From positions 2,622,001-2,686,000 of the forward strand of contig NZ_CP011270.1 of the NCBI RefSeq assembly GCF_001610835.1: 64,000 bases of DNA, read 5' to 3'. The notes beneath the pieces were generated by a model. It was not told where the DNA came from and made no database searches. It saw only the letters and a list, made by a program, of their open reading frames with translations. The position numbers and the translations under genes are program-made. The stretch is from Planctomyces sp. SH-PL14 (GTDB taxonomy: Bacteria > Planctomycetota > Planctomycetia > Planctomycetales > Planctomycetaceae). This document shows, in pieces, positions 9,962 to 64,000 of this stretch; the stretch's first letter is position 1, and each line of letters starts with the position of its first letter.

Positions 9962-12900
9962 ATGGCGAAATTTTTCATCGAGCGCCCTGTCTTTGCGATC
10001 GTCATCTCGCTGGTGATCGTCTTCGCCGGCGGCGCGTCGCTGATGACGCTCCCGATCGCCCAGTACCCGGAGATCGCCCCCCCGAGCGTCGAAGTTTCGG
10101 CGACTTATCCCGGCGCCAACGCGACCGTCGTCCAGGAGACGGTCGCGGCTCCCATTGAGCAGGAGGTGAACGGTGTCGAGAACATGCTCTACATGTCCTC
10201 GCAGTCGACGAACGACGGCGGCTACAAGCTGACCGTGACGTTCAAGCTCGGCACGAACCTCGACATGGCCCAGGTCCTCGTCCAGAACCGGGTCTCGCTG
10301 GCCCTCCCCAAGCTCCCCGACGTCGTCAAGACGACCGGCGTGAGCACCAAGAAGAAGTCGCCCAGCATCCTGCTGGTGGTCAATCTCTTTTCGGACCTCG
10401 ACAAGACGACCGGCCAGCCCCTCTACGACCAGCTCTATCTCAGCAACTACGCCACGGTCTACATCAAGGACGAGCTGCTGCGGATCTCCGGCGTCGGCGA
10501 CGTCGGGTTCCTGGGCCAGCAGGATTACAGCATGCGGGTCTGGCTCGACCCGGAGAGGCTCGCCTCGCGGAATCTGACCGCCAACGACGTCATCGGGGCT
10601 CTTAAGGAGCAGAACGTCCAGGTCGCCGCCGGCCGCCTCGGACAGCCCCCGGTCCCGACCGGCGTCGACTTCCAGTACATCCTCTCCACGCTGGGGCGGC
10701 TGATCGAGCCGGAGCAGTTCGGCGACATCACGATCAAGACCGGCGAGGCGGGGCAGATCACGCGGCTGCGGGACGTGGCCCGGATCGAGCTGGGGGCCAA
10801 GAACCAGGACATGCAGTGCTCCCTCGACGGACAGCCGTCGGTCGGGATGTCGGTCTTCCAGCTCCCGGGCTCGAACGCCCTCGACGTCGCGAACGCGGTG
10901 CGGAGCAAGATGAAGGAGCTCGAGGCCAAGCTCCCCGGGTTCCAGGCGGGGGTCAAGTACGCGATCGTCTACGACACGACGCCGTTCATCGAACAGTCGG
11001 TCGACGAAGTGTTCCACGCCCTGCGGGACGCCATCGTCCTCGTGGCCATCGTGGTGCTGCTGTTCCTGCAGGACTGGAAGTCGATGATCCTGCCGATGAT
11101 CGACGTCCCGGTCTCGCTGATCGGGACGCTGGCGGTGATGGCGGCCCTCGGCTTCACGCTGAACAACCTGACGCTGTTCGGGCTCGTGCTGGCGATCGGG
11201 ATCGTGGTCGACGACGCGATCGTGGTCCTCGAGAACATCGAGGTCTGGCTGGCGAAGGGCTACGACGCCAAGACGGCGACGATCAACGCCATGAACGAGA
11301 TCACCGGGCCGATCATCGCGATCACGCTGGTGCTCAGCTCCGTGTTCCTGCCGAGCGCCTTCCTCGGCGGGATCAGCGGCCAGTTCTACCGGCAGTTCGC
11401 CCTGACGATCTCCGCCTCGATGCTGATCTCGGCGATCAACGCCATGACCATGACCCCCGCCCGCGCGGTGGCGATCTTCCAGTCCCGCGAGCACAAGCCG
11501 GGGGCGGAGGGGGGACATGAGCACGGCCACGGACTCGAAGCTCTGCCGTGGTGGGGTTACGTGATCCTGCTGGGCTGGCTCTCGAAGGTGCTCCTCTACC
11601 CGCTCGTCGCCGGCCGGCTGGAGGGAGCCTCCTCCTCCGTTCAGTGGGCCGTCGTCCTGCTGTTGGCGGCCCCGGGAGCGGTCCTCGGTTACTGGATCGC
11701 CGCCCCGGCCAACGCCGCCCTGGGGGCGTTCTTCCGCCTCTTCAACAAGGGGTTCGACTGGGTGACGCGGATCTACGGGCGGATCGTCGCCGGAATGCTC
11801 CGGGTCTCGGCGATCGTCGTCCTCGTCTACGGCGGCCTGCTCGCCGCCACCTACGTGGGGCTCGTCAAAACGCCGATCGGCTTCATCCCGAACCAGGACA
11901 AGGGGTACCTGATCGTCAACATCCAGCTCCCCGATTCCGCCTCGCTGGAGCGGACGGCGGAGGTCGTGAAGCGGGTCGAGAAGATCGCCCGCGAGACCCA
12001 CGGCGTGGCCCACACGATCGGGATTCCCGGCCAGTCGTTCGTCCTCAACGCCGTGAACTCGAACTTCGGCTCGATGTTCGTGATCCTCGACGACTTCGAC
12101 CACCGCCACGGACCGGAGACCTACTCCGCCAACGTGGGGCAGAAGATCCGCCGGCAGTGCTTCGACGAGATTCTCGACGCCCAGATTTCGGTGTTCGGCG
12201 CCCCGCCCGTGGACGGCCTCGGGAACGCCGGCGGCTTCAAGCTGATGATCCAGGACCTGAGCGGCGGCGAACTGGCCAACCTCCAGGAGCAGGCGGACCG
12301 CGTCGCCGCCAAGGGGAATGAGCAGCCGGGGCTCGTCGGCCTGTTCAACAGCTTCCGCTCGAACACGCCGCAGATGTACATCGACGTCAACCGGACGAAG
12401 TGCAAGGCGATGGGGGTTCCGCTCGACAACGTCTTCGCCGCCCTCTCGGTCTACCTCGGCGGGTACTACGTCAACGACTTCAACCAGTTCGGCCGGACCT
12501 GGCAGGTCAACCTGCAGGGGGACGCCAAGTTCCGGATGACGCCCGACGGCATCCGGGCCCTCAAGGTCCGCAACGGCCGCGGCGAGATGGTCCCGCTCGG
12601 GACGGTCGCCGACATCAAGGAGATCGGCGGGCCAGTCATGATCACGCGGTACAACACCCGGACCGCCGCCTCGATCAACGGGAGCTCGCTCCCGGGGGTC
12701 AGCACGGGACAGATCATCTCCCGCATGGACGCGGTCGCCAAACAGGAGCTGGCGGGGGACATGGCCTTCGAATGGACGGAGCTCACGTACCTGCAGCTCC
12801 TGGAAGGGAACGCCGCGATCTTCGCCTTCATCGGCGCGATCCTGCTCGTGTTCCAGGTTCTGGCGGCGCAGTACGAGAGCTGGTCGATGCCGATGGCGGT

Positions 12901-13405
12901 CCTGCTCGTCGTCCCGATGTGCCTCCTGAGCGCCGTGGCAGGGCTGTGGATGTTCCACCAGGACATCAACATTTTCGTCCAGGTCGGCTTCATCGTCCTC
13001 GTCGGTCTGGCGGCCAAGAACGCGATCCTGATCGTCGAGACCGCGCGGCAGCGGAAGTTCGCCGGAGAGTCGCGGTTCGAGGCGGCGGTCAATGCCAGCA
13101 AGAACCGCCTGCGGCCGATCATCATGACCTCGTTCGCCTTCATCCTCGGCGTCGTGCCGCTCGTGGTCTCGCACGGGGCGGGCTTCGAGATGCGGCGGAC
13201 GCTCGGCGTGGCGGTCTTCTTCGGCATGCTGGGGGTGACCGGGTTCGGGATCTTCCTGACGCCGGTCTTCTACTACATCATCGACTGGCTCTCGGACCGG
13301 AAGACTCCGGCCGGGGCCGCTCCGCATTCGCCTCCTTCGTCTCCCTCGTCCACTTCCACGGAGGCCGTTCCCGCGGCTCCGCACGCGGTCGGTCCGACCG
13401 CGTGA
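9962..13405 (+). CDS. RND multidrug efflux transporter (AcrB/MexB, HAE1 family)
   Basis: Inner-membrane proton-driven pump, 1147 aa against about 1030-1050 for AcrB. The N-terminus MAKFFIERPVFAIVISLVIV and TM4 IVVDDAIVVLENIE, with D417 and D418 as the proton relay, are typical. The late block VGLAAKNAILIVE is also present. The extra length lies mostly between TM6 and TM7: about residues 510-590 contain a GGHEHGHG stretch and two extra hydrophobic segments (WGYVILLGWLSKVLLYPLV and VQWAVVLLLAAPGAVLGYW), which AcrB lacks. It follows its adaptor gene in an evident operon. The C-terminus is a Pro/Ser/Thr-rich tail. Confidence 0.94.
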   Translation: MAKFFIERPVFAIVISLVIVFAGGASLMTLPIAQYPEIAPPSVEVSATYPGANATVVQETVAAPIEQEVNGVENMLYMSSQSTNDGGYKLTVTFKLGTNLDMAQVLVQNRVSLALPKLPDVVKTTGVSTKKKSPSILLVVNLFSDLDKTTGQPLYDQLYLSNYATVYIKDELLRISGVGDVGFLGQQDYSMRVWLDPERLASRNLTANDVIGALKEQNVQVAAGRLGQPPVPTGVDFQYILSTLGRLIEPEQFGDITIKTGEAGQITRLRDVARIELGAKNQDMQCSLDGQPSVGMSVFQLPGSNALDVANAVRSKMKELEAKLPGFQAGVKYAIVYDTTPFIEQSVDEVFHALRDAIVLVAIVVLLFLQDWKSMILPMIDVPVSLIGTLAVMAALGFTLNNLTLFGLVLAIGIVVDDAIVVLENIEVWLAKGYDAKTATINAMNEITGPIIAITLVLSSVFLPSAFLGGISGQFYRQFALTISASMLISAINAMTMTPARAVAIFQSREHKPGAEGGHEHGHGLEALPWWGYVILLGWLSKVLLYPLVAGRLEGASSSVQWAVVLLLAAPGAVLGYWIAAPANAALGAFFRLFNKGFDWVTRIYGRIVAGMLRVSAIVVLVYGGLLAATYVGLVKTPIGFIPNQDKGYLIVNIQLPDSASLERTAEVVKRVEKIARETHGVAHTIGIPGQSFVLNAVNSNFGSMFVILDDFDHRHGPETYSANVGQKIRRQCFDEILDAQISVFGAPPVDGLGNAGGFKLMIQDLSGGELANLQEQADRVAAKGNEQPGLVGLFNSFRSNTPQMYIDVNRTKCKAMGVPLDNVFAALSVYLGGYYVNDFNQFGRTWQVNLQGDAKFRMTPDGIRALKVRNGRGEMVPLGTVADIKEIGGPVMITRYNTRTAASINGSSLPGVSTGQIISRMDAVAKQELAGDMAFEWTELTYLQLLEGNAAIFAFIGAILLVFQVLAAQYESWSMPMAVLLVVPMCLLSAVAGLWMFHQDINIFVQVGFIVLVGLAAKNAILIVETARQRKFAGESRFEAAVNASKNRLRPIIMTSFAFILGVVPLVVSHGAGFEMRRTLGVAVFFGMLGVTGFGIFLTPVFYYIIDWLSDRKTPAGAAPHSPPSSPSSTSTEAVPAAPHAVGPTA

Positions 13406-52807: not shown

Positions 52808-55800
52808 TTGGGCACTTTCCGATCGGCCATGGCAACACTCCGCGGCCTCCTGTTCGTTCTTACGCTGGCCGCCTCATGGACGGGGTGGGCCAGCCACGCC
52901 GTCGCGCAGGAAGCCCTGAACGCCAAGCCGGCGCCGGAGGCGCCCGCAGCGACGGCCGCCGCGGACATCGGCTTCATCGGCCTGCATGGCGGCATCTACG
53001 AGCAGCTGCAGAAGCACGCGGCGGGGCTCAACCTGCGGCTGGTCTACTTTGAAGATGGCGAGATCGCGCGGCGGTCCGCCGATCTGGGGCAGGTCCGCGT
53101 CCTGTACGTCCAGCATGTCCGTGAAGAGGACCGGGACGCCTATCAGGCGGCGATCCGGCAGGGACGGACAAAGAACCCCGCCCTCGCGATCTACGTCTTC
53201 CCGGCGAACTCCTTCGAGTTCCTCAAAGGGCTCGCCCCCGCCGGCGCGGTGGAGCAGGACGCCGAGGCGCAGAAGTACTACGGCTCCTCGGGCGAGAACC
53301 TGCGGCGGCTGCTCGTGTATACGGCCGCCAAACGGCTCGGACGGGACCTGAAGATCGAACCGGCCGAGATCGTCGAGCAGGAGGGGTTCTATCACCCTGG
53401 TCACAGTGACTTCTTCCCGACGTCCGCGGCGTTCGAAACCTGGCGTCGCGGCCGCCCCGGGGCACCCGCCGAGGGGCCGCGGCTCCTGATCGCCGTCCAC
53501 GCGACGCACCTCGCGTTTCAGCAGCCCCGCGTTGTCGACGCGTTGATCCGGGAGTGCGAGCGGCAGGGGGCGATCGCCGCCGCGATCATCGACGGCCGTT
53601 CGCCCCGGTACGCCGAACAGGCGGAAGCCTTCGCGCCGCAGGCGGTCATCCACACCTGCCACAGCGGCGACCCGCTTCCGCTGCGGCTCAAGCTGAACGT
53701 CCCGCACCTCCACTCGATCTTCCTCCGCAAGCAGTCGATCGATCAGTGGCAGTCGAGCCTCGAAGGGCTCGCGTCGAGTGAGCTGGCATTCCACATCATC
53801 GGGCAGGAGCTGATCGGCGCGATCGAGCCGCAGGTCGCCGCCGGGACCACGCAGGGGATGGGGAGCGCCGAGGCGTTCCAGCCGATCCCCGACCGGGTCG
53901 AGCATCTCGTCTCCCGGGCGCTGTCGTTCGCCCGCCTGGCCCAGACTCCTCCCGCGAAGAAGAAGGTCGCCGTCATCTATTACGACCGCGAGATGGGGAA
54001 AGGGGAGCTGATGCGCGGCAGCTCGACGGGGATGCACATGAACGCCCCGCGGAGCCTCATCAACGTCCTTGAGGCGATGTCCCGGCACGGCTACGACATC
54101 CAGCCGGTTCCCCGCCACGAAGACGAGCTCCTCGGCTGGATGATGGAGCGGGGCCGGCAGGTCGGGGTCTGGGCTCCGGCCGAGCTCGACCGGCTGGTCC
54201 GGACCGGCCATCCGGTCCTCGTCCCCGAGGCGAAGTACCGGGAGTGGTACCAGCGAAAGGTTCCCGCCGATCGTCGCGAGCAGCTCGAGGCGAAGTGGGG
54301 CCCGCCGCCCGGGCGGTTCATGGTCTGGGAGAACGGCGGCCAGAAGCACATCGTCATTCCCCGGATCGAGCTGAACAACGTCGTGCTGCTCCCCCAGCCG
54401 CTCCGCGGAGAGCTGCATGGCCGCGAGGAGGCAAGCGCCCAGACGCACGACAAGGTGACGACTCCGCCGCACAACTACCTGGCGACCTACTTCTGGCTGG
54501 AGCAGGAGTTCGGCGCGAACGCCCTGATCCACTTCGGGACCCACGGGTCGGAGTTCGCCCTCCCCGGGAAGCCGAACGGCCTCGCCCGCCGCGACTGGTG
54601 CGACGTGATCATGGGATCGATGCCGAACTTCAATCCCTGGATCATCGAGAACATGGTGGAGTCCTCGCCGGTCCGCCGGCGGGTCTACGGCACGCTGCTG
54701 AGCCACCTGCCGCCGCCGATCGTCGATGCTGGCCTCAGCGACGAGCTCGAGAACCTGCACGAGACGGTCGACAAGTGGACGACCCTCGAAGAGGGGGCCC
54801 TGAAGCAGAAGTTCCGCGAAGAGATCTCGCGGCAGGTCCGGGCCTGCCACCTCGACACCGACCTCAAGCTCGTGGGGCCCGACGATCGGCTGCTCGAGCC
54901 GCATGAGATCGAGGCGGTCTCGAAGTACCTCCACGCGATCCAGGAGGAGACGACCCCCACAAGCCTGCACGTCTACGGCGAGCGGCCCCGCGCCGACCTG
55001 CTGATTCCGTACATGGTCACGATCCTCCGGGCCCCGTTCCTGCGGGAGCTGGGCCGGCTGCAGCACGACCATCAGCACGAAACCGGCATCGACCATGATC
55101 ACGACCACGACCATGCCGTCCGCCCCGCCGCCGAGAAGATCCTGACCCTCGTGCTCCGGCAGGGGGTCGCGCCGCTCGATGCGGTCAACCTGACGCTCGG
55201 AACGGAGCTCAAGGAGCTTCCGGAGGTCCTCGAGAAGGGATTGAAACTCGTCGTCGCGCTCAACGCGGACTTCGACAAAACGACCGACGAGATCGACAAC
55301 CTGCTGAAGGGACTCGACGGCCGGTTCGTCCCGCCCGGGCCGGGGAACAGCCCGATCCGGAACCCGAGCGCGGTCCCGACCGGCCGGAACATGTACCTCC
55401 TCAACCCCGAGGAAGTCCCGACCCCGCCGTCGTGGGAGCTGGGGCGAAAGCTCGCCGACGATCTCATCACCCGGCACCAGTCGCAGACCGGCGAGTTCCC
55501 GACCAAGATCGGCTTCGACCTCCGGAGCAGCGCCACCTTCCGGGACTACGGCGTGATGGAGGCTCAGATCCTGCACCTGATCGGCGTCGAGCCGGTCTGG
55601 GACGAGCGGAACCTGGTCAACGACGTCCGCCTCGTCCCCCGCGAGACGCTCGGGCGGCCGCGGGTCGACGTCTTCGTCGCCAGCGGGGGCTGGTACGAGT
55701 CGAACCTCCCGTCGCGGCTCAACCTGTGGGACAAGGCGATCCGGCTCGCCGCCCAGTCGGACGAGCCGGACAACCCGCTGTTCCGCAACACCGCCCGGCT

Positions 55801-57061
55801 CAAGGAGACGCTTGCCGGGCAGGGGATCGCCCCCGACCGGGCCGCGCTCCTGTCGCAGGCCCGGATCTTCGGCCGCGCCCCGGGAAGGGAATCGGGGGGC
55901 TTCCTTGCCTACCGGGTCGCCCGCTCAGGGGACTGGAACAGCCGGGACGACATCGCCGCCGCCTACCTGGCCGAGAGCAAGCACGTCTTCACCGAGGGGG
56001 CCTGGGGCGAGCCGGCCGCGCCCCTCTACGACGCCGCCATCCAGGGGACGCACACCGTCGTCCGGAGCTGGTCCGACCACATGACCGGTCCGCTCGCCAG
56101 CCGCTATACGTGGCTGCACGGGGGGAGCCTCAGCCTCGCGGTCGAGGCCCTGACCGGGAAGCGTCCGGAGTACGTCTTCTCCGACGTCCGCGATCCCGAC
56201 AAGGCGGGGATCGTCAATGCTGAGGAGGCCCTGCGGCGGGAGTTCCGCGTCCGCCTCTTCAACCGGAAATGGCTCGAAGGGATGATGAAGGAGGGGTACT
56301 CCGGCGCGGACCACATCCGGTTCCTGACCTCGAACAGTTTCGGCTGGGAAGTGATGCGGCCCGGCAGTGTCGGGACCGACAACTGGAACGAGATGAAGCG
56401 GGTGCTGGTCGACGACAAACTGAATCTCAACCTCCGGGAGTGGATGGAGCGGAACAACCCGTATGCCTTCCAGGACACGCTCGCCACGATGCTCGAGGCG
56501 ACCCGCAAGGGGTACTGGGAGGCGGATCCGCAAACGGTGCAGGAGGTCGCCGTCGCCTATGCGGAGAGCGTCGCCCGCCACGGTCTGTCGGGCCACATGA
56601 CGAGCGGCGGCAACCGGCCGCTCGATACCCTGGTCCGGGGTGAGCTCGCCAAGGTCACGTCACCGGGGGGGGCTCAGCTCCTCGAAGGCTACGTCCGCGG
56701 AATCGAAGCCCAGACGCAGGCGTCTCCGTCGGAACTCGCTCAGGCGACCGCCCCCGCCCCGGGCGCCGCGCCCGGGGCAGCAATGCCCGCCCCCGCTGCG
56801 GCGCCGGCCTCGGCACCCCCTGCGGCTGGCTCGGCTCCGAATGCGGCCGCACCTCCACCACCGGCACAGGCCGGAGCGTCTCCTCCTGCGACCGTTCCCG
56901 TGGAAGGTCAGCGGCTGCAGGCTTCGGCTCCCCCGGCCAGTACCGACAAGCAGGCGGGGGCTTCGGGGACTCCCCTGTGGGACTCGACTCCCTGGTTCAT
57001 CGCGGGAGCAGCAACGCTCCTCGTTCTGGCCGGCTTTGTGTTTCGGCGAGGCGCCCCGTGA
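52808..57061 (+). CDS. Secreted, membrane-anchored CobN/ChlH-like chelatase (HmuS-like)
   Basis: 1417 aa. Signal peptide (about residues 8-34, ending near AVAQ), then a CobN/BchH-type chelatase body from about 50 to 1290. Recognisable are HFGTHGSEFALPGK with H575 and H579, NPWIIENMVESSPVRRRVYGT, GGWYESNLPSRLNLWDKAI, and YTWLHGGSLSLAVEALTGK. A His/Asp-rich insertion lies at about 752-770. A Pro/Ala-rich linker and one C-terminal membrane helix (WFIAGAATLLVLAGFVF) anchor it, so the catalytic part faces the periplasm. Cytoplasmic CobN and BchH lack such signals; secreted CobN-like proteins with ExbB-like and DUF2149 partners are known from Bacteroidota heme-use loci (HmuS), where they remove iron from heme. 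The substrate here (heme, cobalamin, chlorin) is not known. TTG 52808 has GGGGAG upstream; ATG 52829 is the alternative. Confidence 0.88.
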   Translation: MGTFRSAMATLRGLLFVLTLAASWTGWASHAVAQEALNAKPAPEAPAATAAADIGFIGLHGGIYEQLQKHAAGLNLRLVYFEDGEIARRSADLGQVRVLYVQHVREEDRDAYQAAIRQGRTKNPALAIYVFPANSFEFLKGLAPAGAVEQDAEAQKYYGSSGENLRRLLVYTAAKRLGRDLKIEPAEIVEQEGFYHPGHSDFFPTSAAFETWRRGRPGAPAEGPRLLIAVHATHLAFQQPRVVDALIRECERQGAIAAAIIDGRSPRYAEQAEAFAPQAVIHTCHSGDPLPLRLKLNVPHLHSIFLRKQSIDQWQSSLEGLASSELAFHIIGQELIGAIEPQVAAGTTQGMGSAEAFQPIPDRVEHLVSRALSFARLAQTPPAKKKVAVIYYDREMGKGELMRGSSTGMHMNAPRSLINVLEAMSRHGYDIQPVPRHEDELLGWMMERGRQVGVWAPAELDRLVRTGHPVLVPEAKYREWYQRKVPADRREQLEAKWGPPPGRFMVWENGGQKHIVIPRIELNNVVLLPQPLRGELHGREEASAQTHDKVTTPPHNYLATYFWLEQEFGANALIHFGTHGSEFALPGKPNGLARRDWCDVIMGSMPNFNPWIIENMVESSPVRRRVYGTLLSHLPPPIVDAGLSDELENLHETVDKWTTLEEGALKQKFREEISRQVRACHLDTDLKLVGPDDRLLEPHEIEAVSKYLHAIQEETTPTSLHVYGERPRADLLIPYMVTILRAPFLRELGRLQHDHQHETGIDHDHDHDHAVRPAAEKILTLVLRQGVAPLDAVNLTLGTELKELPEVLEKGLKLVVALNADFDKTTDEIDNLLKGLDGRFVPPGPGNSPIRNPSAVPTGRNMYLLNPEEVPTPPSWELGRKLADDLITRHQSQTGEFPTKIGFDLRSSATFRDYGVMEAQILHLIGVEPVWDERNLVNDVRLVPRETLGRPRVDVFVASGGWYESNLPSRLNLWDKAIRLAAQSDEPDNPLFRNTARLKETLAGQGIAPDRAALLSQARIFGRAPGRESGGFLAYRVARSGDWNSRDDIAAAYLAESKHVFTEGAWGEPAAPLYDAAIQGTHTVVRSWSDHMTGPLASRYTWLHGGSLSLAVEALTGKRPEYVFSDVRDPDKAGIVNAEEALRREFRVRLFNRKWLEGMMKEGYSGADHIRFLTSNSFGWEVMRPGSVGTDNWNEMKRVLVDDKLNLNLREWMERNNPYAFQDTLATMLEATRKGYWEADPQTVQEVAVAYAESVARHGLSGHMTSGGNRPLDTLVRGELAKVTSPGGAQLLEGYVRGIEAQTQASPSELAQATAPAPGAAPGAAMPAPAAAPASAPPAAGSAPNAAAPPPPAQAGASPPATVPVEGQRLQASAPPASTDKQAGASGTPLWDSTPWFIAGAATLLVLAGFVFRRGAP

Positions 57062-57765
57062 CCGACCGCATCGTCGACATCCTGTTCCAGATCTCCACGG
57101 GACTTCTCGCACCGACCCTGGTCGTGCTGCTGATCCTGATGGGGGGGATCCTGCTGCTCCTCGGCGGGATCACCCGCGAGTTCCTCGACCGCCGCGTGCA
57201 TCTCCAGACCTGGCGGGCGTTCCTCGCGAGGGCCCGTTCGACCGGCGCGTGGGACGAGGGGTTCTATGACCTGCGGCTCGTCGGCTACCCCGCCCGGTTT
57301 CAGGCCCGCACGCGGGACGCGCGGCACAACCCGCTCGTGGCCCGCAAGTGTCTCGAGGACCTCGAGCTCGACATGGCGCGGCGGATGGCGTGGCTGACGT
57401 TTGCCATCCGGGTCGGCCCGATGCTGGGGCTCGTCGGCACGCTGGTCCCCCTCGGCCCGGCCCTGATGGGACTGGCCGCGGGTGACATCCAGTCGTTGTC
57501 GGGCAACCTCGTGATCGCCTTCACGACCACCGTCTTCGGAATCCTGGTCGGCGGGGGCGCGTTCACCGGCAACCTGATCCGCCGGGCCTGGTACGAACAG
57601 GACCTCAGCGACCTCGAGTACCTCGCCGACCTCCGCGAGCACGGCGCACGCCTCGGCAGCAACGGCGAAGGCCACCCGACCAGCCTCCCGCTCGGCCCCG
57701 CCTCCGTGGGAGCAGGCCCCCGTGCGGGCCACGAAGCCCCGCGGGCCGGAGGCCGTCATGCGTAA
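57058..57765 (+). CDS. MotA/TolQ/ExbB-like membrane protein (HmuU-like)
   Basis: 235 aa, GTG start overlapping the chelatase stop (GTGA). Membrane segments lie at about 12-38 (LLAPTLVVLLILMGGILLLLGGI), 115-135 and 150-175. The proton-channel signature RVGPMLGLVGTLVPLGPALMGLAAGD ... LVIAFTTTVFGILVGGGAF matches MotA/TolQ/ExbB proteins. It probably converts proton motive force into work on the periplasmic chelatase (inference from family and gene order). The C-terminal 30 residues are Gly/Pro-rich and unlike the family. Confidence 0.9.
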   Translation: MTDRIVDILFQISTGLLAPTLVVLLILMGGILLLLGGITREFLDRRVHLQTWRAFLARARSTGAWDEGFYDLRLVGYPARFQARTRDARHNPLVARKCLEDLELDMARRMAWLTFAIRVGPMLGLVGTLVPLGPALMGLAAGDIQSLSGNLVIAFTTTVFGILVGGGAFTGNLIRRAWYEQDLSDLEYLADLREHGARLGSNGEGHPTSLPLGPASVGAGPRAGHEAPRAGGRHA

Positions 57766-58078
57766 CAAGCCGCGCCGCTGGGACTCGGGGGACGACGATC
57801 CGCTGGCGGGTCTCGTGAACCTGTTCGACGTCTGGATGGTGTTTTCGATCGCGCTCCTCATCGCCATGATCGGCGCCGCCCGCTCGCAGACCTCGGCAGC
57901 GTCGGGGCCAAAGCCCGATCCCGCCACAGCCGCGTCGCCGACGCTCGAGCAGTTGATCGACACGCAGCGGAAGTTGCCCTCCTACCGAGTCAGCGAAGAC
58001 AAGCTCTCCGGCCAGGGCCAACGCCTCGGCACCGCCTACCGGCTTCAGTCCGGCGAAGTCGTCTACGTCCCGGATTGA
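57758..58078 (+). CDS. DUF2149 protein (HmuV-like)
   Basis: 106 aa. The opening RRWDSGDDDPLAGLVNLFDVWMVFSIALLIAMI has one membrane helix at about 24-42, and the soluble tail holds PTLEQLIDTQRKLPSYRVSEDKLSGQGQRLGTAYRLQSGEVVYVPD, a clear DUF2149 pattern. The layout (short N-terminus, one helix, periplasmic tail) is like ExbD/TolR, so it may be the partner of the ExbB-like protein. Its start overlaps the preceding gene by eight bases, which supports translational coupling. Third gene of the chelatase/ExbB/DUF2149 core. Confidence 0.9.
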   Translation: MRNKPRRWDSGDDDPLAGLVNLFDVWMVFSIALLIAMIGAARSQTSAASGPKPDPATAASPTLEQLIDTQRKLPSYRVSEDKLSGQGQRLGTAYRLQSGEVVYVPD

Positions 58079-58215
58079 CGCCGCCGCCGCCATCCCACGT
58101 TGAAGCCGGAACCACGCCTCGGCGCTGTGCCGGGGCCGGCGCGAAATGGAAACGGTTTCTTCCTCTCCAGGTCGAACATCCGTGTTCGCCGCGAAGCGGG
58201 ACCGACTTCCCGGCG

Positions 58216-58629
58216 TCACGCGCCCTCGAACCAGCCGATGGCGCGGCAGAGTTGGAACTGGGCGATGTTGTAGTCGATCACGGCGTTGAGGTACGTCTGG
58301 CGCGACGTCGCCAGAGCCTGGGACGCCTGCAGGACCTCGATCGGAAGTCCCTGGACGTTCTCGATCCGCTGCAGGTTGAGGGCGTAGGACTTCTCGGCCG
58401 CCTGAATCGCGGCGCGCGCCCGTTCGACGCTGCGCTCCCGCTGCGAGGCCTGGCTGTGCGCCTCGGAGACTTCACGGGCGATGCGGTCGAGGAGCGCGAC
58501 CTGCCGCCATTGCGCCTGGCGGACGAGCGACGACGCTTCGTCGCGGGCCGCCCGCTCGCTGTAGCCGAGGTTGCGGATCTCCCAGTCGGCGACCGCATCG
58601 GCATCCAGACGGTCGTCGGTATTGCGAAT
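58216..58629 (-). pseudogene. TolC-family outer-membrane factor, C-terminal remnant
   Basis: On the minus strand the frame from 58629 to a TGA at 58216-58218 encodes LDADAVADWEIRNLGYSERAA near the start, then the helical run ERARAAIQAAEKSYALNLQRIENVQGLPIEVLQASQAL and a final YLNAVIDYNIAQFQLCRAIGW. This is the last third of a TolC-like protein. A stop codon (58630-58632) closes the frame upstream, and no N-terminal part follows. It is a truncated relic of a czcC/tolC gene that once stood by the adaptor and pump pieces downstream. Confidence 0.8.
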
Positions 58630-58791
58630 TCAGATGCCCCGTGCAGCCTGACGAGAGTTGTTGGCAGGCAAAGCACCGCGGCTCCGGTGTTCACATAACA
58701 ATTGCAAGAGTGCCAATGGACTGTCGTGCATGCGGTGATAAGATGAGAGGGAATTGCGAGTTCGGGGTCCCTTTCCATCGATCACCGTCGA

Positions 58792-59268
58792 ATGTCCCGC
58801 GTCGTTGCCCTCCTGCTGATTCCGCTTTGCCTGATGGGGCAGCCGATGCCTCACGTGCACGCGGGGGCCGCCGGGAAGGGCGATCACGATGGCCGGAACC
58901 ATCTCCACATGGGTCACGGTCGTGCGGGGCACGGTCACGCGGGTCACGGTCACCACCATTCGCACGGCGGCGGACACCGGCATCGACACGATCGCCCTCA
59001 TCACCATCACGATGATGAGGCCCGGCTCCCGGGATGCTCGGAGCTTCCGGATCATGACGCTGACGCCGTGTTCCTCGGCGATCTCTCGCCTGGCGGCCCC
59101 TTGAAGCGCGTGGCTGTGCCGCAATGGGATCTGGCCGTCGACATGGCCTGGGCTCCGCTGGTGCCGGTCTTTGCGGTCGAGCGCCTTTGCTGCCGTTACA
59201 TCGCCGATCCGCCTGATCCGTCGGGCGGGACGCCGATCTATCTCCAGACCGCTTCTCTGCGGATCTAA
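58792..59268 (+). CDS. His-rich secreted metal-binding protein
   Basis: 158 aa. The N-terminus MSRVVALLLIPLCLMGQPMPHVHAG looks like a signal peptide. A run of His/Gly/Asp from about 25 to 80 (e.g. HGHHHSHGGGHRHRHDRPHHHHDD) can bind nickel, zinc or copper. The rest, with LKRVAVPQWDLAVDMAWAPL and CCRYIADPPDPSGG, has no known fold. Proteins of this type accompany czc-like genes in planctomycetes, which fits the remnants on both sides. The gene itself looks intact. Confidence 0.7.
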   Translation: MSRVVALLLIPLCLMGQPMPHVHAGAAGKGDHDGRNHLHMGHGRAGHGHAGHGHHHSHGGGHRHRHDRPHHHHDDEARLPGCSELPDHDADAVFLGDLSPGGPLKRVAVPQWDLAVDMAWAPLVPVFAVERLCCRYIADPPDPSGGTPIYLQTASLRI

Positions 59269-59479
59269 CCGCGGGCTGTCGCCGTGCGATGTCATCGCAC
59301 CCGCGCGACGTTCTTTTCGGTCGACAAGGCCGTTCCCTTCGCCGCTCGAGGCGAATGGGAGCGCTGGCCGCTTTCCACGACCACCTGCGCCCCTCATCGG
59401 ACCGAACACCGGTCGGCGTTTCTCATGAACCGGCGGTGACACGCCGCCACTGAGATTTCGTTTGAGCGAAAGGCTCGCC

Positions 59480-59915
59480 ATGAAACCCTCCAGAGTGCTC
59501 CTGTGGCTCGTCCTCCTGGGCGTCCCCATCGGCGCGGCCGTGGTCACGCGCCACACCTGGCTACCGCTCCTGCAGAAACGGACCCCTCCGCCTCACACGG
59601 CCGACGACGGCGAAAGGCCGAAGGAGAAGCCGCGGATCCTGGAGCTGAGTCCGCAGGCCCGTCAGAACCTCGGTCTCGTGGCGAGGCCGGCGAAGCTTCA
59701 GTCGTACTGGCGGACCGTCCAGATCCCCGGCGAGATCGCGGACCGCGCGGGGGTCTCGGACCGGGGCCTCGTCGAGGATGCGATCGTCGACGTCGAGAAC
59801 ATCTTCCGCCGCCTGAAGGAGAACAACGCGTCGCCGACGCCAAGGCCGGCGCTCCTCGTGGTCTACGAGGCGAGCCGCGAGATCCGCAGCGCCATCGTGT
59901 TCGGGACGACGCCCG
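59480..59915 (+). pseudogene. In-frame fusion of an efflux adaptor N-terminus to an internal CzcA piece
   Basis: From the ATG at 59480 the frame begins as a metal-efflux adaptor: membrane anchor VLLWLVLLGVPIGAAVV, then LELSPQARQNLGLVARPAKL and TVQIPGEIADRAGVSDRG. At about 59765 it switches, without leaving the frame, to VEDAIVDVENIFRRLKENN and LLVVYEASREIRSAIVFGT, which corresponds to the TM4-TM5 part of CzcA (compare [16 protein letters not shown] and [17 protein letters not shown] in the intact pump at 45531). The rest of the adaptor and pump is missing. A deletion of several kilobases is the simplest explanation. Confidence 0.85.
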
Positions 59916-60084
59916 GCAACGCCCGCAACATGCACTTTGACGGACGTCGAGTCGAGCTGCGGTTTGGCGAGATCGGATTCGCCCAGTGCCTCTGCCAGAT
60001 CTTCTGTTCACACCAGCGATCGTATCGTCACTGGATGCTGCGCCACGTCCCGAATCGCACGAGTTCCGCACGCGCGGCCCACGC

Positions 60085-60856
60085 GGCATCAGGTGTTCGC
60101 CGGTCTCGACGCCCACAACGATGGAAAGCTGACGCTAGCTGAGTCACTGGGGATCCATCCTCCGGACAAGCAAGCCGGCCAGAGGCCGGCGTTTCGAAGG
60201 CTGGGCTGCGATGGGGACGGATTGCTGGCGCGCCGCGAGTGGACTGACGAGATCTCTGGAGAGCTCCCCGCCGACTGGGAGTTCCGCGTTCGGGACGACG
60301 ATGGTGACGGAGACCTGGCGTTCGGAGAGTTCACGAGCGTCATTTAAGAGAAGTGGCGGAACCTCGAAGCCCGCAAGTTCCGACTGGCGGCTGGAACCGC
60401 GACGGTCGGATTTCGCTGGACGAGTTCCGCGGCCTGCCAGGGCGGGTTCCGCTCCCGGAACGCGCCGATTCCCGATCCGGTCCGGGACGAATTGGAGCAG
60501 TCTTGAAGGGACCGTTGGTCCACCTGGGAGTCAGCGCGGAGATGTCGACCGGCGCGGTGGGAAAAGTCCCGCCGAAAGATCTGGCCAGGAAATTCGCCTC
60601 CCTCCCCCGTGCGGCGTGGGATCGGGATGGAGACGGGAGGGTCTCCGCAGAGGATTGCCGCAAGTTCCTGGCGATTGCCTATGACATTCGCGACGAGCCG
60701 GGACGGTTGATCCGCCAAGACAATGGCCGGATCGTAAACTATCACGCCATCCAGGAGTGGGATCGGGACCAGAGCGGGACTCTGTCTCGTTCCGAGTTCG
60801 TCACGAACCACTGGAGTAAGAAGGAGAGCGAGTCGATCTTCGCAAAGGGAGATTCA
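60085..60856 (+). pseudogene. Frameshifted and IS-interrupted EF-hand protein gene
   Basis: Two frames carry calcium-binding loops: first DAHNDGKLTLAE, CDGDGLLARREW and DDDGDGDLAFGEF (to a stop at 60345-60347), then, in another frame, NRDGRISLDEF, DRDGDGRVSAEDC and DRDQSGTLSRSEF to about 60850. The shared EF-hand spacing (D-x-D-x-DG pattern and E/D at position 12) shows one original multi-EF-hand protein, split by a frameshift near 60347 and cut by the left inverted repeat of the insertion sequence at 60857. No continuation is clear behind the element. Confidence 0.75.
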
Positions 60857-61766
60857 GAGCCTATCCCAGAACCGTTTCGTGAATTGGCCCGCTCTGTGCA
60901 TTTCGAGAGGTATCGACTCTCGAACGTGCATGGAGGTGCGCCCGTGGCTGTCAGTGACGCGTCAAAGTTTCACCAGATCTCCGATTCGCTCTGGGAACGG
61001 ATCGAGCCCACGCTCCCGGTTTACAAACCGAATTGTCGAGGGGACGTCCACGTCTGCCTCTACGCCGTGTTGTGACAGGCATCCTGTACGTGCTGCGGAC
61101 GGGTTGCCAATGGAAGGCAATGCCCCAGGAGTTCGGCTCCGGCAGCGCCATTCACGCCTACTTCCAGGAGTGGGTCAGGCGCGGCCTGTTCCGCAGACTG
61201 TGGCGGACCGCGCTTGAGGAATACGATGACCTGAAAGGGATCGACTGGGAGTGGCAGAGTCTGGATGGGGCGATGACCAAAGCGCCGCTCGGGGGGGAAA
61301 AAGACGGGGAAGAACCCCACAGATCGCGGGAAACTGGGGGTCAAACGCTCGGTGCTGACTGATGGCCGGGGTGTGCCGGTGGGAGTGGCCGTGGCCGGCG
61401 CCAACGTGCACGATCAGAAGTTGGTGGTCGAGACGTTCCAAAGCCTTCCCGTTCGCCGTCCCCCGGGACGACGTCGTCGTCAGCATCTGTGCGCGGACAA
61501 GGGCTACGACGCGCAGGCCATCCGCCAGACGGCGGCCCGTCGCGGATACGTCGTCCATATCCCTCGGAAGGGGACCGAGCCTCCGCGTCCTGTGCGGCGA
61601 CGGGGTCGGGCGCGACGGTGGGTGGTGGAACGTCTGCACTCGTGGACGAACCGCGCCCGACGCCTGCTGACCCGGTGGGAAAAGACAGCGGTCAACTACC
61701 TCGCATTTCTCCACCTGCAGTTCGCCATCACCGCTTGGAGGACGGCCGGGGTTCTCGGATAGGCTC
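60857..61766 (+). mobile_element. IS5-family insertion sequence (IS427-like group), 910 bp
   Basis: Terminal inverted repeats: left GAGCCTATCCCAGAACC (60857-60873) and right, as the complement, GAGCCTATCCGAGAACC (61750-61766), differing at one position. A transposase frame set fills the interior, and its stop overlaps the right repeat. Flanking bases TCA and TTA do not form an exact target duplication. Size and ends fit the IS427 group of IS5. It interrupts the EF-hand gene. Confidence 0.85.
60944..61762 (+). pseudogene. IS5-family transposase, two frame breaks
   Basis: A GTG at 60944 behind GGAGGTG starts VAVSDASKFHQISDSLWERIEPTLPVYKP. At about 61045 the match moves to another frame (RGRPRLPLRRVVTGILYVLRTGCQWKAMPQEFG, to LDGAMTKAPLGGEK). 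Near 61300, in a G8A5 run, it moves back (the GKNP-type stretch, then LTDGRGVPVGVAVAGANVHDQKLV, ADKGYDAQAI and RRWVVERLHSWTNR). The DDE-type acidic residues are the D of SLDGA, the D of ADKGYD and the E of VVERLHSW. The second break might be a programmed frameshift as in some IS427 members; the first is more likely decay. The copy is probably inactive. Confidence 0.8.
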
Positions 61767-62641
61767 TTAGAGGTGAAAAGATCACTTGTGCAAGGGATCG
61801 CGGAGTGGCCGGCGGAGAGTTCGAGGGGGAGGCGAACAGGGGAGTCATACGTGACGTGGCCTCTGCCGTGAACAGGAGAATGTAGAGGAGTCGCAGCGGG
61901 CGAGAGGGGTACCAATGAACGCGGACTGTTCCGGTTGTTGCCATAAATGGTCCCCTGCGATGAGCCGGGGGTCACGTCTTCATAAAAATTCGAATTGGCT
62001 GAAGGCTCCACCTGCGGAACCCTGGGGATTGATACCACCGAGAAGTGCTCCTCGGAGTGACGGTCGTCGCAGGTCGAATACGACGGGTACTCACGTCAAG
62101 TAGTTCAAAACGACTGTTGGCAGGGCGGCCCTTGTCGCTCCCCGGTGCGGCCGGTGGCTGTCTCGTGTGATTCCATGCGCCAATTCATCGGTGGTGGGAG
62201 ACTCAGGCCAGGTTATCTCTTCATCAGAGTCTCTCCGGCTTCCCTTGCAACACCAAAGGCGGGTCGTCACCATCCTGTCGTGGCCAGAGGGTGACTGGGC
62301 GAGGGGCCTCGAGACTAACGGGGCGTTAAAAGGGAAGGGGCCGCCATGAGGCAGTTCGTTCTGAACGTCTTCGCAATGGTGTCTAGATCGCATTTCTCGA
62401 CCGCGACGACGCAGACGTCGATCCATCCGGAGAAGGCGAGGGGTCTCACTCCTTTCGGCCCTACAAAATGCGTGATGGGTGGCGCCGATGCTGAACTACG
62501 AGAGCGAGATGAAGCAGACGCCCTTCATTTTCAGTAGGTTCAGATGCGAGGAATCCTCTGTAAGTGCTCGTTCGTTTGGCCTCAGGCATTAACAAGTGTA
62601 TAAATATGTGCGTCGGTGTGATAATTGGCCGATCGTATCAA
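61767..62641. other. Gene-poor stretch behind the insertion sequence
   Basis: About 875 bases without a gene I can support. Short frames on both strands show no domain or coding-type composition. From about 62560 the sequence becomes clearly more AT-rich than the rest of the window. It may be debris of the interrupted EF-hand locus. Confidence 0.4.
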
Positions 62642-63334
62642 ATGATTTTGGAGTCATTGCATGCCAAAGCGAAGTGCGCTTTTTCTATACTCTTGGTCGC
62701 CTACGATTATGCCATCGATGTGCAGGTCGATCCTTGGCAATTCGCGGTGCAGGTTTCCGAACTTCGAAGTCTGGGATTGTCGTTAAGCGATCTCCGATGG
62801 TTGGTTTTGAAGGGATTCGCCATTCATGGTCAGGAATGCACACTTCCCGGCGATTCGACTCGCTCGTTTCGCATTCTGCCGTATGCCTCGCTCGTTTTCT
62901 CTGAAGGGATATGCGTGGCATTGAGTTCCCACGGTGCATCGGAACTGCGCAGGCATTGCGATGAATCAATGCGATCGGAGACTTCTTTCTCAGTATCAGA
63001 TTCAGCTGCGGCCGCGCAGTCCGTGTTACAAACTCCCTCCGCCGCACCTCGGACGGTGCCGATCTGGAAGAAGGAGATCCGGGAGCTCTGGTACCGCGAT
63101 CAATTGATCAAGCGTTTTCGCGTTCCTGCCGACTCTCAGGAGCGCATCCTGGATGCGTTTCAGGAAGATAAGTGGCCAGAGTGGATTGACGATCCGCTTC
63201 CACCGAAGAATGGGGCCGATTCGCGTCGGAGACTACGCGAGGCAATCAAGTCGCTGAACCGCAACCGAGCGGCCACGGCATTGAGATTCCATAGTAATGG
63301 AGATGGGATCCGAATTCATTGGGAATGCGAATAG
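62642..63334 (+). CDS. Planctomycete conserved hypothetical protein
   Basis: 230 aa. The N-terminus ESLHAKAKCAFSILLVAYDYAIDVQVDPWQFAVQVSELRSLGLSLSDLRWLVLKGFAIHGQE looks like a helical winged-helix-type domain. A Ser/Ala linker follows near 120-140, then a second domain, PIWKKEIRELWYRDQLIKRFRVPADSQERILDAFQEDKWPEWIDDPLPPKNGADSRRRLREAIKSLNRNR. This arrangement recalls a widespread planctomycete family of unknown function, probably DNA-binding or regulatory (inference). I chose the ATG at 62642 because the homologous-looking part starts there; the frame is open 26 codons upstream. Base composition is lower in GC than the left part of the window. Confidence 0.7.
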   Translation: MILESLHAKAKCAFSILLVAYDYAIDVQVDPWQFAVQVSELRSLGLSLSDLRWLVLKGFAIHGQECTLPGDSTRSFRILPYASLVFSEGICVALSSHGASELRRHCDESMRSETSFSVSDSAAAAQSVLQTPSAAPRTVPIWKKEIRELWYRDQLIKRFRVPADSQERILDAFQEDKWPEWIDDPLPPKNGADSRRRLREAIKSLNRNRAATALRFHSNGDGIRIHWECE

Positions 63335-63386
63335 CTTGCGTCCGAAGAGCCTTACGTTCTGATTGCCCAGGCGATTGGATCAATCG

Positions 63387-63419
63387 CCCCGGGAGTGCCC
63401 CGGGAGTGCCCCGGGAGTG
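63387..63419. repeat. Three tandem 11-base units
   Basis: The unit CCCCGGGAGTG occurs three times in direct, exact tandem (63387-63397, 63398-63408, 63409-63419). It lies in the intergenic stretch between the conserved hypothetical and the last gene. Each unit holds the palindrome CCCGGG. The role is unknown; it may be slippage or a binding-site array. Confidence 0.8.
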
Positions 63420-63616
63420 CATGTTGGCAACTCTCTCCACAGGTGCCAATGTGGCGTATGAGGAGGTCGAGCTACGGCCGCCCGGTGAGTCGTAGAACTC
63501 TTGCTATCCATCAAGACCAATATTCCAAAGCACGGCGGCGATAAGGCGCACGGTCAGAAAAATAGTAGGGATCTGAGGACTGTCCGTGACGTTTTCTCCG
63601 GAAAGCAGAGCCAATT

Positions 63617-64000
63617 ATGAAGCAGTGTTTCTCGCAATACATGCTCACATCCCTTCTGTTCCTCTTGATTGCACGCCTCCAGGCTGCGGACTCCCAGTCG
63701 TCGGCGGATTCCGGCTCCAAGCCGACTTATCTCGATCGCAATGCCTACGAAGACAGTTTTGCTTATTACGGGCCACAGGGATTGTGGAAGAAGTTTCAGA
63801 AGAGCGAGACGCTGCAGGCGGGACGTGACACCTGGTTCTTCTGGACGGGGGGGGATGGCCCAGGAGGAACCCAGAACTTTTACCGGGCTCTGAGTGTCTA
63901 CTCGTCGAGTCTCTCTCTTCAAGGCAAGATTCAGTTCTACACAGTGGCCCAGATGTCGCATCGGGATCGCTGGCAGAAGCTGGGGTTGATTAATGAACCG
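63617..64000 (+). CDS. Secreted protein, C-terminus off the right edge
   Basis: 128 residues are visible without a stop. The N-terminus (MKQCFSQYMLTSLLFLLIARLQAADS) is a signal peptide. The mature part has PTYLDRNAYEDSFAYYGPQGLWKKF, then GRDTWFFWTGGDGPGGTQNFYRALSVYSS and RDRWQKLGLINEP. The GRDTWFFWTGG and LGLINEP segments recall secreted planctomycete proteins with c-type-cytochrome-like parts, but no heme motif lies in the visible piece. Purine-rich GGAAAG precedes the ATG. Function not assigned. Confidence 0.65.
   Translation, partial: MKQCFSQYMLTSLLFLLIARLQAADSQSSADSGSKPTYLDRNAYEDSFAYYGPQGLWKKFQKSETLQAGRDTWFFWTGGDGPGGTQNFYRALSVYSSSLSLQGKIQFYTVAQMSHRDRWQKLGLINEP

Follow-up and report, generated by a model that had tools for sequence, protein, structure and literature searches.

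Does the short open frame that begins at position 59480, in which the N-terminus of a periplasmic adaptor runs directly into the interior of a metal-efflux pump, encode a new small protein, or is it left over from the decay of an efflux operon? The window analysed here is a stretch of 64,000 nucleotides (genome bases 2622001-2686000) from Planctomyces sp. SH-PL14. We consider it very probable that the locus is a decayed CusA/CzcA-type operon in which a chimeric frame has arisen by chance. The ancestral order of such a metal-efflux operon would have been His-rich protein, adaptor and pump, and the following features now occupy the locus (window coordinates).

58185-58638, minus strand: ectopic duplicate of the 3' part of a TolC/OEP outer-membrane channel gene, together with 31 bp from downstream of it; a residual frame spans 58216-58629
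58792-59268, plus strand: intact 158-aa His-rich protein with a signal-like N-terminus (by eye), native to the operon type
59480-60142, plus strand: whole chimeric open frame, 220 codons from the ATG at 59480, stop codon at 60140-60142
59480-59767, plus strand: first 96 codons of an RND periplasmic adaptor with its N-terminal membrane anchor (identity to intact adaptor N-termini; hydropathy)
59768-59909, plus strand: CzcA-type pump piece, second half of TM4, loop and start of TM5 (identity to intact pumps; ACR_tran)
59905-60057, minus strand: scrap from inside an IS4/5-type (DUF4096) transposase gene, 10 bp of which are deleted; the chimeric frame reads it in antisense
60090-60856, plus strand: remains of an EF-hand gene, split by a frameshift into 60090-60347 and 60353-60856 and truncated by an IS element
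60856-61770, plus strand: IS4/5-type insertion sequence of 915 bp with terminal inverted repeats GAGCCTATCC/GGATAGGCTC and DUF4096 and DDE domains

The chimeric frame and its joints

The adaptor and pump parts meet at 59767/59768, two to three bases from the junction near 59765 given by the first-pass annotation, and the frame is continuous across this joint. Residues 1-96 are adaptor, with approximately 40-50% identity to intact adaptor N-termini (top rows among the family genomes); this part, of which the first 96 residues alone survive, retrieved no Pfam adaptor-domain match at E 0.1. Residues 97-143 (47 codons) are the pump piece, which reaches 89% amino acid identity to intact CzcA-type pumps over its 47 residues and matches Pfam ACR_tran with an E-value of 1.3e-5, albeit at 23.6 bits and thus under the cut-off of 28. 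The chimeric frame matched none of the NCBIfam models at E 0.001. The parents of both fused parts are CusA/CzcA-family heavy-metal RND operons, for whose pumps the NCBIfam model is TIGR00914; the pump of an intact relative, L049, passes this model (719.7 against a cut-off of 701.45).

What we take to be TM4 contributes its second half to the pump piece, and TM5, beyond the loop, just its beginning; neither helix is whole. The earlier description of an adaptor N-terminus joined in frame to the TM4-TM5 part of a pump is therefore right about the join, but overstates the pump part, which is limited to the second half of TM4 and the start of TM5. The single membrane anchor that had been expected is retained and comes from the adaptor: its N-terminal anchor is the most hydrophobic stretch of the frame (19-residue mean up to 2.08), and the best 19-residue mean in the pump piece is 0.95. 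The fused adaptor and pump parts contain zero stops and zero frameshifts. The proposed 145-residue peptide ending near 59915 did not hold up, as the frame runs on through antisense IS debris, beginning at about 59909, to 60142; its last ~75 codons consist of this debris and of unplaced sequence. A promoter scan for the chimeric frame found 0 sites, where the chance expectation was also just 0.1.

The second joint lies where the pump match (to two paralogs from the same genome) ends, at 59909, and the transposase match starts, at 59905, with GACGA common to both. The rest of the pump is missing from the locus, and a broken transposase scrap, joined via these 5 bp, stands where it would be. The scrap is 79% identical (129/163, with a 10-bp gap) to copies at 712596 and 2714089, and a DUF4096 domain was found in its parent frame.

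The proposed deletion behind the adaptor-pump joint

In 12 related loci carrying both genes, the adaptor comes first and the pump next, and the two points joined here lie 2562-2703 bp apart, as opposed to 0 at this locus. Because of this spacing, the adaptor-pump fusion is attributed to one collinear deletion of ~2.6 kb, which would have taken the adaptor from residue 97 on together with the first ~490 residues of the pump; the prior chance of the frame being retained is one in three, and its retention would be fortuitous. The earlier proposal of a collapsed adaptor-pump operon with an in-frame deletion that left the His-rich gene intact is supported. In two paralogous operons of the same genome, the joined points are 2389 and 2412 bp apart. 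Comparison by eye with 14 loci revealed no direct repeat at the deletion joint. The joins themselves, their parent sequences and the intact operons elsewhere are directly shown; we infer that these events were deletions and illegitimate joins within this lineage, and the same applies to their order.

Eleven of the 12 related loci have an unbroken pump frame. In the remaining one, L056 (G051:C13, 1435-5902), the pump is split into two frames (614 and 593 aa), which may reflect a further loss under way or a draft error.

That the adaptor-pump joint itself is an assembly error appears extremely unlikely: the genome is a single contig of 8.44 Mb, and no long repeat was seen at the joint.

A functional CzcCBA or CusCBA pump has 12 TM helices and porter domains, and a complete periplasmic adaptor has hairpin, lipoyl and barrel domains. 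Compared with intact CusA/CzcA operons, both adaptor and pump are incomplete here: the first 96 residues are all that is left of the adaptor, and 47 residues of the pump, with no other piece of the same pump near the locus. The operon has no outer-membrane channel of its own either, since the 137-aa channel tail present here is a copy from another RND operon. As expected for a relic, the locus lacks sequence that intact, collinear relatives retain.

We also considered that the C-terminus of the pump might survive beyond the IS element. A search with the L049 pump turned up nothing more of this pump around the locus or over the following ~14 kb; elsewhere in the window it matched separate RND pumps, one at 45-48 kb and one at 10-13 kb. 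The latter is an RND-pump-like stretch (10430-13276) that aligns with the L049 pump as two pieces of 29% and 22% identity.

Genes and debris around the fusion

The His-rich frame upstream of the fusion is open and encodes 21 His residues, in agreement with the first-pass annotation, which had called the protein intact. It has no match in Pfam or NCBIfam. The gene was matched in 24 of the 170 family genomes, the window's own included. Among the matches listed, and by hand comparison, 19 of the 25 His-rich rows from other genomes lie upstream of an adaptor or pump match on the same strand, with 12 of these just upstream of an adaptor match and seven at 3-5 kb upstream of a pump match; no such neighbour is among the matches listed for the other six. 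Judged from this gene order, the His-rich protein belongs to this type of metal-pump operon; at the locus it is intact. It is a recurring partner of these pumps and has here outlived its own.

A TolC C-terminal fragment is present as had been annotated, since the minus-strand frame at 58216-58629 aligns with the C-terminal half of the OEP model in Pfam (E 4.1e-10), but this fragment does not come from the same operon type. The region 58185-58638 is 96% identical (435/454 bp) to G000:C1:5125364-5125817, with flanks that do not match, and the 137-aa fragment is 97% identical to the product of the intact 585-aa channel gene at 5.125 Mb. This 96% copy rules out, as the source of the fragment, a TolC gene native to the operon type. 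The 5.125-Mb channel gene adjoins an adaptor and an RND pump that form a different RND operon: this pump fits the heavy-metal family poorly (TIGR00914, 332.5 bits against the cut-off of 701.45), and a multidrug RND model scores best, yet still at 491.2 against a cut-off of 1250. Intact relatives of the channel gene occur in at least 96 of the 170 family genomes, the window's own included. What stands upstream of the wrecked operon is a tail copy of this unrelated TolC gene.

Fragment and donor differ at 13 codons, of which nine are synonymous and four change an amino acid (dN/dS 0.17). At each of the four changed sites, the residue of the fragment is found in 0 of 29 relatives. The donor residue is the commonest at three of them, one of the four is Gly in 29/29 relatives, and at the fourth site 16 relatives have Q and 13 have the R of the donor. 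To us the fragment looks like a dead copy. An alternative is that the 5.125-Mb channel gene was once present here as a complete copy, adopted by the operon as its own divergently oriented channel, and that a later deletion left just the tail. The relative L052 has two channel-like genes (by eye) divergent from its His-rich gene, and with nine of 13 codon differences synonymous and a dN/dS of 0.17, some of the divergence may have arisen while the sequence was still constrained. Nevertheless, the match is limited to 454 bp with differing neighbouring bases, the two L052 genes have no match to the fragment at E 0.01, and all four amino acid changes fall on the side of the fragment; we therefore regard a former complete copy as unlikely.

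Downstream of the chimeric frame, the first piece of the EF-hand relic scores 25.3 bits with EF-hand_1, marginally under the cut-off of 25.4. The 915-bp IS element that truncates it has three other full-length copies in the genome, which are 95-97% identical. The mobile-element debris behind the fusion would have been added to the wrecked operon. The locus thus holds one complete IS4/IS5-type element (Pfam DUF4096) and one scrap; the scrap, which contributes to the tail of the chimeric frame, derives from a different element than the complete IS. Further along the window, G+C content is 0.49-0.58 at 62500-64000, compared to 0.68-0.73 at 56.5-58.5 kb, and this low G+C may mark foreign DNA past the IS element.

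Relic or new gene

The first-pass annotation had named an intact short gene with the same fusion in several species as the finding that would make this a real protein rather than a relic. Such a gene was sought in a family sample of 170 genomes in 58 genera and in a class sample of 397 genomes drawn evenly, some of which are shared with the family set. Apart from the locus itself, no short adaptor-pump fusion is among the matches listed from either sample; both samples were covered by junction-centred searches, and the matches from the class genomes have E-values up to 1e-18. The matches listed for the family genomes remain informative because a true fusion should outrank matches to a single part. 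Additionally, a scan of named genomes, which may omit records of the window's own genome, retrieved one distant pump (L060) and zero fusions. A conserved small fusion gene was accordingly discarded as a candidate at both the family and the class level, as far as the matches listed extend.

Rows that cross the joint belong, with one exception, to pump frames at least about 1000 aa long (for example, G294, query 11-84 in a 1141-aa frame, and G146, query 14-83 in a 1067-aa frame), and these are pumps into which the alignment was extended. The exception, a 211-aa frame in G337 (query 30-84), is an 81-residue pump relic with no adaptor match within 7.2 kb. This CzcA-type relic (L136, G337:C549, 3949-4191) belongs to a different family of the class and has no other pump piece in the same 7.2 kb. 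Its left end corresponds to pump residue 487, three residues off the joint described here (490); the near coincidence of the two break points is possibly due to chance or to a recurrent break point.

Both fused parts are little changed. In the pump piece, one of 28 invariant columns is changed, at the third codon after the joint, and 14 of 17 relatives, when left out in turn, have no such change; the median dN is 0.106 to relatives versus 0.105 among relatives. For this comparison, 17 of 21 distinct pieces were retained, all with at least 72% identity and one of them the paralog at 7.83 Mb of the same genome; L003, L005, L006 and L060 were dropped, and dN/dS was computable for 11/17 and 89/136 pairs. 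In the adaptor core, one of 17 invariant columns is changed, compared to none in 20 of 23 relatives, and the median dN of 0.214 is the third highest of 24, on the fast side yet within range (31 loci queried, 23 distinct complete cores kept; 13/23 and 182/253 pairs computable). Both comparisons were made with relatives that do not include a second species of the same genus. So little decay fits a recent loss of the operon, and would also fit retained selection.

The chimeric frame could therefore be read as a new small membrane-anchored protein, for instance one that interferes with paralogous adaptors or pumps. It is open for 220 codons, its two operon-derived parts are little decayed, and it retains the N-terminal anchor. 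We would like to note, however, that TM4 and TM5 are both incomplete, that the final ~75 codons derive from antisense IS debris and unplaced sequence, and that no such short fusion is among the matches listed from the 170 family and 397 class genomes; a new protein is thus very unlikely. Slightly less probable still would be a new gene, made by the in-frame deletion and kept by selection, for a small inner-membrane protein that carries an adaptor head and the ion-relay half-helix of a pump and assembles with, or disturbs, the two intact paralogous systems. Under the preferred reading of a decayed operon, the chimeric frame would most likely make no useful protein. An in-frame chimera of this kind, with a tail from a foreign operon nearby, could nevertheless be mistaken for a gene.

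An inactivated HME-RND locus has been described in Cupriavidus metallidurans CH34, where nimA of nimBAC is interrupted by ISRme3 (PMC6266692, PMC7019866). The loci are similar in that a metal pump was lost, a mobile element was involved and other intact pumps are present in the genome. Unlike the insertion in nimBAC, the present locus has a large internal deletion, a replaced 3' part of the pump and imported debris. Loss of a heavy-metal pump with involvement of a mobile element is already known (PMC6266692, PMC7019866). The present locus is an ordinary relic. It matters little by itself, yet offers a clear worked example of how an efflux operon breaks down.

The first-pass annotation had also suggested that redundancy with an intact system at 42-48.6 kb of the window may have made the loss tolerable. 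Related intact operons do exist, but that system does not offer the closest pump: over the aligned part, the 46-kb pump shares 36% identity with the L049 pump, which is of the locus type, and it scores 642.6 with TIGR00914, against the cut-off of 701.45. Identity to the L049 pump is 54% for the pump at 5.15 Mb and 53% for the one at 7.83 Mb, each accompanied by an intact adaptor in its operon, and 39% and 37% for another two pumps, located at 8.26 and 0.297 Mb. As judged by pump similarity, the operons at 5.15 and 7.83 Mb are likelier backups, and these two related intact operons could cover the loss.

The locus-type pump (L049:7939-11373 and related pumps) matches ACR_tran in two stretches, the better one from residue 226, and when it is aligned with the 46-kb pump the alignment is interrupted from residue 135 to residue 229. 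This suggests that the L049-type pump carries an inserted or divergent segment near residues 135-229. Within the window, a DUF1559 protein, which would point to a planctomycete, is encoded at 51.6-52.8 kb, and CobN/magnesium-chelatase-like, MotA/ExbB-like and DUF2149 proteins are encoded in a row at 52808-58078, just upstream of the wrecked operon.
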